From Thioalbus denitrificans (GTDB lineage Bacteria > Pseudomonadota > Gammaproteobacteria > DSM-26407), in assembly GCF_003337735.1 (NCBI RefSeq), contig NZ_QPJY01000001.1:722175-786174 (forward strand): a stretch of DNA of 64,000 bases, in the 5' to 3' direction. The translations under genes and the position numbers were made by a program. Shown one piece after another: positions 34,127 to 47,065 of this stretch. The first letter of the stretch is position 1. Each line of letters begins with the position of its first letter. The notes beneath the pieces are model-generated. The model was not told the DNA's origin. It ran no database searches and saw only the letters and a program-made list of their open reading frames with translations.

Positions 34127-35508
<1,382 letters not shown>

Positions 35509-41978: not shown

Positions 41979-43214
41979 ATGGTGAAAAAACCGGAGAAGA
42001 GCCTGATCGTGGGGCTGGATATCGGCACCTCCAAGGTGGTGGCCATCGTGGGCGAGGTCACCGCCGAGGACAAGCTCGACATCGTGGGCATCGGCTCCCA
42101 CCCCTCGCGCGGACTGAAGAAGGGCGTGGTGGTGAACATCGAGTCCACCGTCCAGTCCATCCAGCGCGCGGTGGAGGAGGCTGAGCTGATGGCCGGCTGC
42201 CAGATTCACTCGGTGTTCGCCGGGATCGCGGGCAGCCACATCCGCAGCCTCAACTCCCACGGCATCGTGGCCATCCGCGATCACGAGGTGACCCAGGCGG
42301 ACGTGGACCGGGTCATCGACGCGGCCCGCGCGGTGGCCATCCCGGCCGACCAGAAGATCCTCCACGTGCTGCCGCAGGAATTCATCATCGACAACCAGGA
42401 GGGCATCCGCGAGCCCATCGGCATGTCCGGGGTGCGCCTGGAGGCGAAGGTCCACCTGGTGACCGGCGCGGTGAGCGCGGCCCAGAACATCATCAAGTGC
42501 GTGCGCCGCTGCGGGCTGGAGGTGGACGACGTCATCCTCGAGCAGCTCGCCTCCAGCCACTCGGTGCTCACCGACGACGAGAAGGAGCTGGGGGTGTGCA
42601 TCGTGGACATCGGCGGCGGGACCACCGACATCGCCGTGTTCACCGAGGGGGCCATCCGCCACACCGCGGTGATCCCCATCGCCGGCGACCAGGTGACCAA
42701 CGACATCGCCGTGGCCCTGCGCACGCCGACCCAGTTCGCCGAGGAGATCAAGATCAAGTACGCCTGCGCGCTGACCCAGCTCGCCAACATCGAGGACCAC
42801 ATCGAGGTCCCCGGGGTCGGCGATCGGCCGCCGCGCAGGCTGAGCCGCCAGACCCTGGCCGAGGTGGTGGAGCCCCGCTACGAGGAGCTCTTCCAGCTGG
42901 TGCAGGACGAGCTGAGGCGCAGCGGGTTCGAGGACATCGTCGCCGCCGGCATCGTGCTCACCGGCGGCAGCGCCAAGATGGAAGGGGTCATCGAACTGGC
43001 GGAAGAAGTGTTTCACATGCCGGTGCGGCTGGGCCTGCCCCAGCACGTCACCGGCCTGGTGGACGTGGTGCGCAACCCCATCTACGCCACCGGCGTGGGG
43101 CTGCTGATCCACGGCCACCGGCAGCAGATGCAGAGACTCCCGGAGATGAAGATGGGCGGGGGCATGCGAGGGATCTGGGAACGGATGAAAGGCTGGTTCC
43201 AGGGTAATTTCTGA
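41979..43214 (+). CDS. ftsA: Cell division protein FtsA
   Basis: Actin-like ATPase tethering FtsZ to the inner membrane, 411 residues. N-terminal phosphate loop [19 protein letters not shown], second phosphate loop [17 protein letters not shown], adenosine motif [14 protein letters not shown], and the amphipathic membrane-binding C-terminus [14 protein letters not shown]. Starts: ATG 41979, with GTG 41970 as a less well-spaced option. Unlike the preceding junctions, a 64-bp gap separates it from ftsQ. Confidence 0.95.
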
Positions 43215-43303
43215 ACCGATGGTGGCGACTGCCCGCCGCTGCGGCGGTGGTGCTCGAAGCGCTCCCGGGGCGCGACGACAAGCGGAGACAGGAGGCGATA
43301 ACA

Positions 43304-44458
43304 ATGGTCTTTGAACTGATGGATACCTACCCGCAGAATGCGGTCATCAAGGTGATCGGCGTGGGGGGCGGCGGCGGCAACGCGGTCCAGCACATGGTCC
43401 AGGCGAACATCGAGGGCGTGGATTTCATTTGCGCCAACACCGACGCCCAGGCGCTGAAGAACGCCGCGGCGCGCACGGTGCTGCAGCTGGGTGGCAACAT
43501 CACCAAGGGGCTCGGCGCCGGCGCCAACCCGTCGGTGGGCAAGCAGGCGGCCATCGAGGACCGTGAGCGCATCGCCGAGGTGCTGGAGGGGGCCGACATG
43601 GTCTTCATCACCGCCGGCATGGGCGGCGGCACCGGTACCGGCGGTGCGCCGGTGGTGGCGGAGGTGGCCAAGGAGATGGGCGCCCTGACGGTGGCGGTGG
43701 TCACCAAGCCGTTCCCGTTCGAGGGCAAGCGGCGCCTGCTGGTGGCCGAGGAGGGCATCCGCGAGCTGACCGGGCACGTGGACTCGCTCATCACCATCCC
43801 CAACGAGAAACTGCTGAGCGTGCTGGGCAAGAACATCTCGCTGCTGGACGCCTTCAAGGCGGCCAACGACGTGCTGCTCGGCGCGGTGCAGGGCATCGCC
43901 GAGCTCATCACCCGGCCCGGGCTCATCAACGTGGACTTCGCCGACGTGCGCACGGTGATGTCGGAAATGGGCATGGCGATGATGGGCACCGGCGCGGCCA
44001 CCGGCGAGGAGCGTGCGCGCCGCGCCGCCGAGGCGGCCATCTCCAGCCCGCTGCTGGAAGATGTCAACCTGGCCGGTGCCCGCGGCATCCTGGTCAACAT
44101 CACCGCCGGCCTGGACATGTCCATCGGCGAATTCGACGAGGTGGGCAGCACGGTCAAGGAGTTCGCCTCCGAGGACGCCACGGTGGTGGTGGGCACGGTC
44201 ATCGACCCGGACATGACCGACGAGCTGCGGGTGACGGTGGTGGCCACCGGCCTGGGGACCCGGGCCGCGGAGATCCAGAAACCGGTACGTCCGGTGGCGG
44301 TGGCGAAGAAGGCCGACGGCAGCACCAACTTCGACGAGCTGGAGCGTCCGGCGGTGATGCGCAAGAAGGCCGTGGGCCAGCAGTTCGGCGCCGAGCCGGA
44401 GGGCGGGAACATGGATTACCTGGATATTCCCGCCTTCCTGCGCCGGCAGGCCGACTGA
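43304..44458 (+). CDS. ftsZ: Cell division GTPase FtsZ
   Basis: Tubulin-like GTPase that forms the division ring, 384 residues. [16 protein letters not shown] and the tubulin signature [16 protein letters not shown] bind GTP. The T7 loop [13 protein letters not shown] completes the active site of the next subunit. The C-terminal peptide [14 protein letters not shown] is the FtsA/ZipA/ZapD landing site; zapD is also in this window. The start has ACAGGAGGCG upstream. Nearly 90 bp separate it from ftsA, room for a ribosome site or internal promoter. Confidence 0.97.
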
Positions 44459-44563
44459 CCGGAGGCGGAGGCAGCGCGCCGCGGCAGGTGCGTTGCCGGA
44501 TGGGTGCGGCCGGGCGGAAGGAAGGTTGCCCGCCCGGGCGGAATGGCGGCGGGGGGTGGCGCC

Positions 44564-44617
44564 GGTTGTGTGAACCGGTGCACAGGTTGTGTGCGGCTGC
44601 ACAACCTGTGCTACTAT
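44564..44617 (+). promoter_or_regulatory. Palindrome overlapping the likely lpxC promoter
   Basis: CACAGGTTGTG (44581-44591) and CACAACCTGTG (44600-44610) form a perfect 11-bp inverted repeat with an 8-nt loop. GGTTGTGTG also occurs as a direct repeat 21 bp apart (44564, 44585). A -10-like TACTAT at 44612-44617 follows, with TTGTGT at 44587 as a possible, widely spaced -35. Operator or attenuator are both possible. Confidence 0.6.
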
Positions 44618-44669
44618 GTCCACCAATTTTTTGGTGTTGCCGCACGGCGACAGGCAATCTGGGGCGCGC

Positions 44670-45584
44670 ATGATCAGACAGCGGACTCTCAAGAACGTGA
44701 TCCGGGCGACGGGCGTTGGCCTGCATACCGGAGACAAGGTCTACATGACCCTGCGGCCGGCGCCGGCGAACACCGGCATCGTCTTCCGCCGGGTGGACCT
44801 GGCCGAGCCGGTGGAAGTGCCGGCGCGGCCGGAGTTCGTGGGTGACACGACCCTGTCCACCACCCTGGTGCGGGACGGGGTGCGCATCGCCACCGTGGAA
44901 CACCTCCTCTCGGCCTTCGCCGGCCTGGGAATCGACAACGCCTACGTGGACCTGAGCGCGCCGGAAGTGCCGATCATGGACGGCAGCGCAGGGCCCTTCG
45001 TCTTCCTCATCCAGTCCGCCGGGGTGGAGGAGCAGACCGCGGCCAAGCGCTTCATCCGCATCAAGCGGGTGGTGCAGGTGGAGGACGGCGACAAGTGGGC
45101 CCGCTTCGAGCCCTTCGACGGCTTCAAGGTGGACTTCGCCATCGAATTCGATCACCCGCTGTTCAAGCGGGCGGCCAAGCGCGCCGAGGTGGACTTTTCC
45201 ACCACCTCGTTCGTGCGCGAGGTGAGCCGCGCGCGCACCTTCGGCTTCATGCGTGATATCGAGATGCTGCGGGAGCGCAACCTGGCCCTGGGCGGCAGCC
45301 TGGACAACGCCATCGTGGTGGACGAGTACCGGGTGCTGAACGAGGACGGTCTGCGCTACGAGGACGAATTCGTGAAGCACAAGATCCTCGACGCCATCGG
45401 CGATCTCTACCTGCTCGGGCGCAGCCTGGTGGGGGCATTCCGCGGACACAAGTCGGGCCATGCACTGAACAACCGCCTGCTGCAGGAACTGCTGGCGGAT
45501 GTGGACGCGTGGGAAGAGGTGACCTTCGAGGATCCCGCCGAGGCGCCCATCTCCTTCATGCAGCCCGCGTTCGGCGGCAGCTGA
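44670..45584 (+). CDS. lpxC: UDP-3-O-acyl-GlcNAc deacetylase LpxC
   Basis: Zinc enzyme for the committed step of lipid A synthesis, 304 residues. Zn and catalytic residues sit in [47 protein letters not shown] and [14 protein letters not shown]. In E. coli LpxC is controlled by FtsH proteolysis through the C-terminal tail; the tail here ends [10 protein letters not shown], which differs, so that route is uncertain. It lies 211 bp after ftsZ with its own promoter-like region. Confidence 0.96.
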
Positions 45585-45617
45585 CGGGGCAGGGGGCCCG
45601 TCCCGCGCGGCGGGCAG

Positions 45618-46088
45618 TCACGATTCCGGCCGCCCGCGCCGCCGTGCCAGGCGCAGCAGGGCCGACCGCAGCGCCTCATCCCCGACCGCCTCGGCGGTCT
45701 CGCGCAGGTTGCGCGCCGTCTCCTCTCCCAGCGGCCGGGCTCGACGCGACGCCGGTTCACGGGCTATGCTGGCCCGCCCGACGCGGACCTGTATCTCCCG
45801 CACCGGGATGTCGCCCTCGCCTTCGAGTCTCTCCAGCAGCGCGGGCACCGCGTAGCGGATGCGGGTGGCCCAGACGGGGGAGTCGGCCAGCAGCACCAGC
45901 CGTCCGCCGGTGAGGCCGCCGGCCCGGCAGTGGGCGCCCAAATCGACTCCCAGGGTCTCCCTCAGCAGATGCTCGGCCCGCTGCAGCAGCCGGACCCGCT
46001 CGAGCAGCGGCGTCAGGCGGCCGCTGCGGGATTCGAGTAACCTTGCGAAGCGTATTGGAAATCGGCTGCGGTTCAAGTTAATCTTCAC
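45618..46088 (-). CDS. DUF721 (DciA-like) family protein
   Basis: 156-residue basic protein with an N-terminal DUF721 domain (LLERVRLLQRAEHLLRETLGVDLGAHCRAG) and VLLADSPVWATRIRYAVPAL, matching the KH-like fold of DciA, the replicative helicase loader in bacteria lacking DnaC. The C-terminal half is Arg-rich and likely disordered. The apparent GTG start at 46088 lacks a clear Shine-Dalgarno. It faces lpxC tail-to-tail and is divergent from the M23 peptidase, the usual gammaproteobacterial arrangement. Helicase loading is inferred from family only. Confidence 0.8.
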   Translation of the reverse strand: MKINLNRSRFPIRFARLLESRSGRLTPLLERVRLLQRAEHLLRETLGVDLGAHCRAGGLTGGRLVLLADSPVWATRIRYAVPALLERLEGEGDIPVREIQVRVGRASIAREPASRRARPLGEETARNLRETAEAVGDEALRSALLRLARRRGRPES

Positions 46089-46114
46089 CAGTTGGATATC
46101 AGAGCGGCGACGCC

Positions 46115-47065
46115 ATGCATATCATTCTCTTTCGGAATCGCGACGGCAAGTCCGGCGCCACGCGGCTGGGGCGGGGTCAGATGCTCTCGGTCCTGCTGCT
46201 GGCGATCAGCCTGCCCTTGGCCACAGCCTATCTCGGCTATCACCTGGGTTCCGCCGGCAGGTCCGCCCCGGGTGATGGCCAGGATTGGCTCCCTCTGCCC
46301 CAGGCCGAGCTGCAGACCTGGCGCCAGGAACTGCAGTTCCAGCGCTTCGCCCTGGACGCCCTGCGGGACGATCAGCAGGCGCGTACGGAAACCCTCGCCG
46401 CCCGCGTGGCCCAGCTCCAGGCACAGATGATGCGCCTGGACGCATTGGGCGAACGGCTGACCAAGCTGGGCGGGCTCGAGGAAGGGGAGTTCGATTTCAG
46501 CCAGCCGCCGCCCCAGGGTGGTCCCGAGGTGATGGACAACCTGGAGCCGGACGGGCTTAAGAGTCTCGAGTCGGCCATCGACGAGCTGTCGCTCCAGGTC
46601 GACAGCCGTGAGCGCCAGCTCGGACTGCTCTCGGACCTGTTGCTGGACCGCAGTCTCGCCGCCGAGACCCGGCCCACCGGCCGCCCGGTTGAAAGCGGCT
46701 GGATATCATCCAGTTACGGCCGGCGCACCGATCCCATCACCGGCAAGCGAACCCTGCACGAGGGGGTCGATTTCGCCGGGAAATCGGGCTCGGACATCCT
46801 CGCGGTCGCCTCGGGCGTCGTGGTCTTCGCCGGCAGGAAGGACGGCTACGGGCTGCTGGTGGAGATCGATCACGGCAATGGCCTCAGCACCCGTTACGGC
46901 CACAACAGCAAGCTCCTGGTGCAGGAGGGCGAGGTGGTGAAGCAGGGCCAGACCATCGCGCTCCTGGGGTCCACCGGCCGTTCCACCGGTCCCCACGTGC
47001 ACTTCGAGGTGCTCCGGGACGGCCGCCACGTGAACCCCGCACGCTATCTGCGATCGAAGGGATAG
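46115..47065 (+). CDS. M23 family peptidoglycan endopeptidase
   Basis: LytM-domain metallopeptidase of 316 residues. An N-terminal membrane helix (about 24-46), a periplasmic coiled-coil (about 70-170) and a LytM domain with GWISSSYGRRTDPITGKRTL, Zn-site HEGVDFAG, and HVHFEVLRDGRHVNPARYL. The key metal His and Asp are present, so it should be an active crosslink hydrolase rather than an EnvC-like activator. Such genes precede secA in many relatives. The cleaved bond is presumed D-Ala-mDAP. Confidence 0.9.
   Translation: MHIILFRNRDGKSGATRLGRGQMLSVLLLAISLPLATAYLGYHLGSAGRSAPGDGQDWLPLPQAELQTWRQELQFQRFALDALRDDQQARTETLAARVAQLQAQMMRLDALGERLTKLGGLEEGEFDFSQPPPQGGPEVMDNLEPDGLKSLESAIDELSLQVDSRERQLGLLSDLLLDRSLAAETRPTGRPVESGWISSSYGRRTDPITGKRTLHEGVDFAGKSGSDILAVASGVVVFAGRKDGYGLLVEIDHGNGLSTRYGHNSKLLVQEGEVVKQGQTIALLGSTGRSTGPHVHFEVLRDGRHVNPARYLRSKG

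Follow-up and report, generated by a model that had tools for sequence, protein, structure and literature searches.

The region studied lies in a 64-kb stretch of DNA, the whole of which is called here the window. It contains lpxC, separated by an intergenic region of 211 nt from an upstream gene that we take, by its sequence and not by a family search, to be ftsZ. Residues 2-304 of the predicted LpxC match solved LpxC structures with E values down to 5.6e-150. LpxC performs the committed step of lipid A synthesis, serving the outer membrane, and is a drug target. The features of the locus are given below; promoter positions take the first base of the hexamer TACTAT as -12.

43305..44458, + strand: ftsZ (assumed name), upstream neighbour of lpxC, from the ORF list, with a start codon picked within the listed ORF 43247-44458
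44564..44572, + strand: direct repeat, copy 1, GGTTGTGTG, decayed in the congener
44569..44584, + strand: Crp-like dyad TGTGA-ACCGGT-GCACA, centre about -47.5, 9/10 consensus positions (congener 7/10)
44580..44591, + strand: inverted repeat, left arm GCACAGGTTGTG; the congener differs at 44581 and 44582 and is the same at 44580 and over the inner nine bases 44583-44591
44585..44593, + strand: direct repeat, copy 2, GGTTGTGTG, within the left arm and the first two spacer bases
44588..44603, + strand: core dyad TGTGT-GCGGCT-GCACA, centre about -28.5, Crp/Fnr-type spacing, 8/10 Crp positions; congener identical
44600..44611, + strand: inverted repeat, right arm CACAACCTGTGC, overlapping the extended -10; congener identical
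44607..44617, + strand: predicted extended -10 TGTGCTACTAT of the lpxC promoter, 8/8 match to TGTGnTAnnAT
44618..44624, + strand: putative discriminator GTCCACC, G+C-rich, as is common after the -10 in relatives
44621..44636, + strand: predicted leader hairpin CACCAA-TTTT-TTGGTG; congener identical
44625..44632, + strand: probable transcript start AATTTTTT, predicted from the spacing to the -10 and from relatives being T-rich 8-11 bases past the -10
44637..44650, + strand: second predicted leader hairpin TTGCC-GCAC-GGCGA; congener with one change, at loop position 44642
44670..45584, + strand: lpxC, 304 aa, ATG at 44670, stop ending at 45584

An inverted repeat upstream of lpxC

A preliminary description of this DNA had reported a perfect 11-bp palindrome upstream of lpxC, which is exact (CACAGGTTGTG at 44581-44591, with its reverse complement at 44600-44610) and extends by one outer pair to arms of 12 bp, GCACAGGTTGTG at 44580-44591 and CACAACCTGTGC at 44600-44611, separated by the 8-nt spacer TGCGGCTG. 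The direct repeat reported with it is equally exact, GGTTGTGTG standing at 44564-44572 and at 44585-44593, 21 bp from start to start. When the 211-nt intergenic region was shuffled 4000 times with its dinucleotides preserved, perfect arms of at least 12 bp with a spacer of 3-20 arose in 2 of the shuffles. Across the 64-kb window two perfect repeats of that length are seen against 0.45 expected from 20 shuffles, and what sets the palindrome apart is thus its place more than its length; the other is an inverted repeat at 35393-35439 with 17-bp arms and a 13-base spacer. The arm CACAGGTTGTG itself, with at most one mismatch, occurs twice in the window (1.07 expected), which is background.

Sequences compared

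The class draw comprises 172 lpxC upstream regions (30 and 23 loci together with 119 short stretches) and includes this genome and its congener; it is weighted towards lpxC matches of higher score. An lpxC match was present in 346 of 369 genomes, of which only a part was listed and, of those, only a part taken. The named set comprises 80 genome contigs, the closest of 584. Upstream regions shorter than 200 bases were kept (L003, L088, L231), as were the 8 of the 119 short stretches lacking a start codon at the expected place. The two sets are not independent, and identical sequence suggests the same genome for L043/L187, L100/L263 and L107/L211. Promoters that could be aligned on the -10 element, called anchored, number 159, of which 98 belong to the class draw and 61 to the named set. 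Within the order two genomes were compared, both of one genus, giving a single congener.

Core promoter of lpxC

The motif TGTGnTAnnAT, first noticed in 82 of 110 loci, is found at a minimum of 7/8 positions in 101 of the 172 class-draw loci and 62 of the 80 named loci, single-base shuffles of the former giving 9.0 and shuffles of the latter 4.4. Over the 159 anchored promoters the column frequencies are 0.95 for T-17, 0.87 for G-16, 0.98 for T-15, 0.95 for G-14, 0.97 for T-12, 1.0 for A-11, 0.89 for A-8 and 0.99 for T-7, a strength that is partly by construction because these same columns, T-17 to T-7, anchored the alignment. Preferences at -36 to -31 are weak in the same 159 promoters. Two further features do not arise by construction: in 97 class-draw promoters the six bases past the hexamer have a G+C content of 0.66-0.78 by position against 0.52 upstream, and the A+T-rich start that follows has a G+C content of 0.23-0.33 at offsets 8-10. 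Promoters under stringent control typically have a G+C-rich discriminator. As shown by this comparison of sequences, the predicted core promoter of lpxC consists of a widely shared extended -10, here TGTGCTACTAT, and a G+C-rich discriminator, the -35 being weak or absent.

In the window the -10 hexamer is TACTAT at 44612-44617, and TGn directly before TAnnnT, the hallmark of a sigma-70 extended -10, is present as TGCTACTAT within TGTGCTACTAT (44607-44617). No good -35 was found, there being 0 sigma-70-type sites predicted in 44300-44800 and TTGTGT demanding a 19-bp spacer. The palindrome had been assigned to the lpxC promoter region, a placement that the shared extended -10 supports, the transcript start being a predicted one. 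Its position between the -35 and the -10, as first described, does not hold: the 32-bp element spans about -44 to -13, with the left arm over the -35 region and the TGTGC of the extended -10 forming its right end. This widely shared predicted -10 element accounts for part of the right arm. The two arms give the promoter core the two-fold symmetry that is expected of a palindromic operator.

Seven loci (L012, L018, L069, L079, L092, L100, L109) carry, as judged by eye, the sequence CTAGGCA before the lpxC -10, roughly at the spacing of a -35, and this looks like a lineage -35 element. The predicted start AATTTTTT resembles those with UTP-dependent slippage, as at pyrBI and codBA, and many other loci are likewise T-rich just past the lpxC -10. 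Runs of four or more T starting 5-13 bases past the -10 occur in 18 of 97 class-draw promoters against 3-10 of 97 in nine other 9-base windows, an excess too weak to claim UTP-sensitive slippage at the AATTTTTT start; the literature that was searched held no paper combining 'reiterative transcription' and 'lpxC'.

Conservation of the inverted repeat

The lpxC genes of the two species differ at 33 of 912 bases, 27 of these being among the 303 third codon positions. Directly downstream of ftsZ divergence is high (17 differences in 90 and 15 gap columns over 44459-44558), and it falls to 3 differences in 21 over 44559-44579, which holds the upstream copy of the direct repeat; this repeat is lost in the congener, where GGTTGTGTG has become GGCGGTGTG. 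The 32-base palindrome shows two differences, at 44581 and 44582, retaining 10 of the 12 pairs, and its core 44583-44609 shows none in 27. The leader 44618-44672 has one difference in 55, and the block 44583-44672 has two in 90, so that conservation reaches the start codon and the arms are not distinct from the remaining promoter and leader. For the 17 bases 44583-44599, all unchanged, the probability of this by chance is 0.20 if they changed as fast as third positions and 0.03 if they changed as fast as the sequence just upstream.

Pairing at the position of the palindrome, with shifts of up to 2 bases, was counted in the 159 anchored promoters: 12 of 12 pairs form here and 10 in the congener, and among the other 157 one reaches 8, seven reach 7 and the rest 6 at most. 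Conservation in relatives, which the preliminary description had named as a check, is seen as 10 of 12 pairs in the congener; the palindrome was not found at lpxC outside the genus. With one congener, such sequence conservation is suggestive only.

Search for further copies

The form GGTTGTG-N8-CACAACC occurs at zero mismatch in 6 of 369 genomes of the class. Two of these are the genomes of this genus, each with its site at lpxC, and the four others (G033, G052, G184, G192) have it in 3-kb loci without lpxC. With up to 3 mismatches AGGTTGTG-N8-CACAACCT gives 3 sites here and 7 in the congener, against 0 and 1 for the reversed control; in neither genome was a second site with fewer than 3 mismatches found, all the others having exactly 3 (the congener assembly is 87% complete). 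With only this one good copy found, the proposed regulator would be dedicated to lpxC or tolerant of very degenerate sites. A regulon was rejected for CACAGGTTGTG with at most one mismatch (32 forward and 20 reverse matches in the genome, reversed control 30 and 24, i.e. background) and for TTGTG-N8-CACAA at the same threshold (17 forward, 16 in the reversed control).

A different dyad, TGTTGY-N6-RCRACA, stands about 72 bases before lpxC at a near-fixed position in a group of loci of which most carry Lysobacterales or one of its families in the title (L037, L040, L042, L050, L054, L055, L059, L060, L061, L080, L107, L211; in L040 the variant is TGTCGC). A copy is also present in the lpxC leader of the window, as TGTTGC-CGCACG-GCGACA at 44635-44652, within which the second leader hairpin sits; we take it as a coincidence. 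As a regulon this dyad was dismissed, with 74 matches on both strands of 8 genomes against 70 for the reversed control, and of the sites in the 9 of 23 loci that were examined, eight fall within long stop-to-stop frames and one, in a single genome, is the site at lpxC.

Crp/Vfr-like sites in relatives

Matches to TGTGA-N6-TCACA were sought upstream of the anchored lpxC promoters. At 8/10 positions or better the 98 anchored class-draw promoters contain 30 matches, in 28 promoters, against 4, 9 and 3 for three control dyads, and at 9/10 or better 14 against 0, 0 and 0; the 61 anchored named loci contain 13 (controls 1, 1 and 3) and 7 (controls 0, 0 and 0) at the same thresholds. For the variant TGTGA-N6-TCACT, which was chosen after the first matches had been seen, 13 matches of at least 8/10 lie 22 bases and 6 lie 23 bases before the -10 hexamer, every other gap from 10 to 59 having one at most. 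The variant thus takes up the position of a class II activator site in 19 of the 98 anchored class-draw promoters, from 13 families (L010, L013, L184, L201, L225, L246, L252, L263 and 11 further). A match of E <= 1e-40 to the Crp/Vfr-like protein of this genome is encoded in 19 of 19 genomes with such a site and for 60 of 79 promoters without (one-sided Fisher p = 0.010), a value to be read knowing that genomes of one family are not independent and that 74 of the 172 loci, having no anchor, are not in the table; of these, 52 have the protein. Dyads matching at 8-9/10 were also noted at about -61.5, the class I position, in L015, L063, L083, L085 and L092. In the literature that was searched, no report of lpxC being controlled by Crp or Vfr came up.

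The window promoter has no Crp-like site at about -41.5, and hence is not a member of this class II group. Its dyads share the half-site spacing of the class II Crp/Vfr sites that some relatives carry at lpxC, as TGTGA-N6-TCACT 22-23 bases before the -10, but their centres differ: that at about -47.5 matches at 9/10 (7/10 in the congener) and that at about -28.5 at 8/10 in both species. The genome gives 17 HTH_Crp_2 matches above the family cut-off. One of them, an ORF of locus L135, is Crp/Vfr-like, having the helix SREMVGR, which is presumably of the Crp/Vfr type; this protein is present in both species, with 100% and 99% identity in G000 and G001.

Discussion

In the present study we tentatively propose, at somewhat less than an even chance, that the palindrome is a genus-specific, single-target, repressor-type operator placed over a conserved promoter. 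The symmetric element, in its conserved form CAGGTTGTG-N8-CACAACCTG within the 32-bp repeat, appears to lie over the shared core promoter, and the shared extended -10 fixes the position of the dyad over this core. We infer that a dimeric transcription factor would contact the TTGTG half-sites, which are 13 bp apart centre to centre, and that the bound protein, reaching from the -35 region across the spacer to the TG of the extended -10, would compete with RNA polymerase and repress lpxC. The rarity of such arms in shuffles (2/4000), the unchanged 27-base core, the 12 of 12 and 10 of 12 pairs in the two species and the single site per genome are counted in favour of this mechanism. Against it count the presence of the element in only two genomes, the loss of two left-arm bases and of the upstream repeat, the lack of a second site, which is unusual for a regulator, and a Crp match without the A/T pair at the fifth half-site position. 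Since the core has the spacing of the Crp/Fnr family and the genome gives the 17 HTH_Crp_2 matches, a protein of this family is the most concrete candidate for the binder.

The same facts could come from constraint on the promoter combined with chance, the right arm ending in the conserved extended -10, the left arm mirroring it by accident and nothing binding there. The right arm does end in the shared TGTG, the window as a whole is expected to hold 0.45 perfect repeats as long as this one, the dyad was found at lpxC in this genus only, and the conserved block runs evenly up to the start codon. However, 12-bp arms appear in just those two intergenic shuffles, and the inner nine bases of the left arm, lying where there is no good -35, are unchanged in the congener although the sequence just upstream has diverged. 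We consider this explanation rather unlikely.

The palindrome might also act in RNA and not as an operator, transcripts reading through from ftsZ forming, shortly before the lpxC start, a 12-bp stem that would protect or define the 3' end of the division-gene mRNA or insulate lpxC. The calculated stability of the stem is -22.1 kcal/mol here and -18.3 kcal/mol in the congener, whose stem has one pair replaced by G-U and another missing, and repeats are common upstream of lpxC in relatives, 9-base arms with 8-9 pairs being present in 20 of 79 promoters against 3.8 expected; one locus, L042, has 20-bp arms and a 4-nt loop. These long repeats of other loci nevertheless lie at scattered positions, and the whole stem of the window precedes the predicted lpxC start and falls on elements of the promoter. 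No U tract follows it, the sequence after the stem being TACTATGTCC, and 0 intrinsic terminators were predicted in 44300-44800, by which an intrinsic terminator is rejected. A role in RNA, whether for the division-gene mRNA or for lpxC, is thus distinctly unlikely to our judgement, and a known RNA family was likewise dropped with 0 Rfam matches at gathering score in 43000-47000, which takes in the lpxC leader and its surroundings.

A more specific version of the operator proposal names the genome's own Crp/Vfr-like protein, the core dyad at about -28.5 being a site moved from the class II activating position found in relatives to a repressing one over the promoter core. The class II sites of 19/98 class-draw promoters, all 19 accompanied by a close Crp/Vfr homologue (p = 0.010), the two Crp-like dyads of the window promoter (9/10 and 8/10) and the homologue in both species are in line with it. 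Yet the better dyad, at about -47.5, drops to 7/10 in the congener and is at no canonical position, and in the dyad that is kept the inner half-site positions, contacted by Crp, carry T and G where a Crp site has A and T. The palindrome is moreover longer than a Crp site, and we regard this version as improbable. The wider history that it implies receives equally little credence from us: lpxC would be an old and widespread Crp/Vfr target in the class, and the genus would have swapped the class II site for symmetric elements in the core, passing from activation to repression. A MerR-type operator is dismissed, as it requires a dyad centred in a 19-20-bp spacer: the only 19-bp spacer, whose -35 would be the poor TTGTGT, has its centre about 6 bp downstream of that of the dyad (44595.5).

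Regulation of lpxC by transcription factors has known parallels, to which the palindrome adds a new, local case. In E. coli the promoters lpxCP1 and lpxCP2 resemble the window in lying upstream of lpxC as its own promoters with a factor site overlapping core elements, and a class II marbox there serves MarA in activating lpxCP2, the effect over the whole region being 2-fold (PMC12052159, which also mentions a link of RamA to lpxC in Klebsiella). That marbox is non-palindromic and activating (PMC12052159), whereas the element of the window has perfectly matching arms and, to judge by its place, would repress. In Pseudomonas syringae an OmpR-like factor binds the lpxC promoter, so that direct binding of a factor at this promoter outside the enterics, as proposed here, has a precedent; the case differs in the factor family and in being an activation, and the excerpt of that paper used here mentions no palindrome (PMC9602974).

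The amount of LpxC in E. coli is adjusted by FtsH proteolysis through the degron LAXXXXXAVLA (PMC6339880, in excerpt), and this degron is absent from the LpxC tail here, in agreement with the difference pointed out in the preliminary description. Control of lpxC transcription through the palindrome may be one way in which its expression is adjusted. Bacteria without the FtsH-type tail must balance lipid A otherwise, and control at the promoter is an obvious candidate. In the improbable case that lpxC is an old Crp/Vfr target of the class, activation from class II sites would link lipid A synthesis to cAMP in many lineages, possibly ones without the FtsH tail of E. coli. The shared anatomy of the lpxC promoter makes such control directly testable, and the palindrome of this genus would be one local solution.
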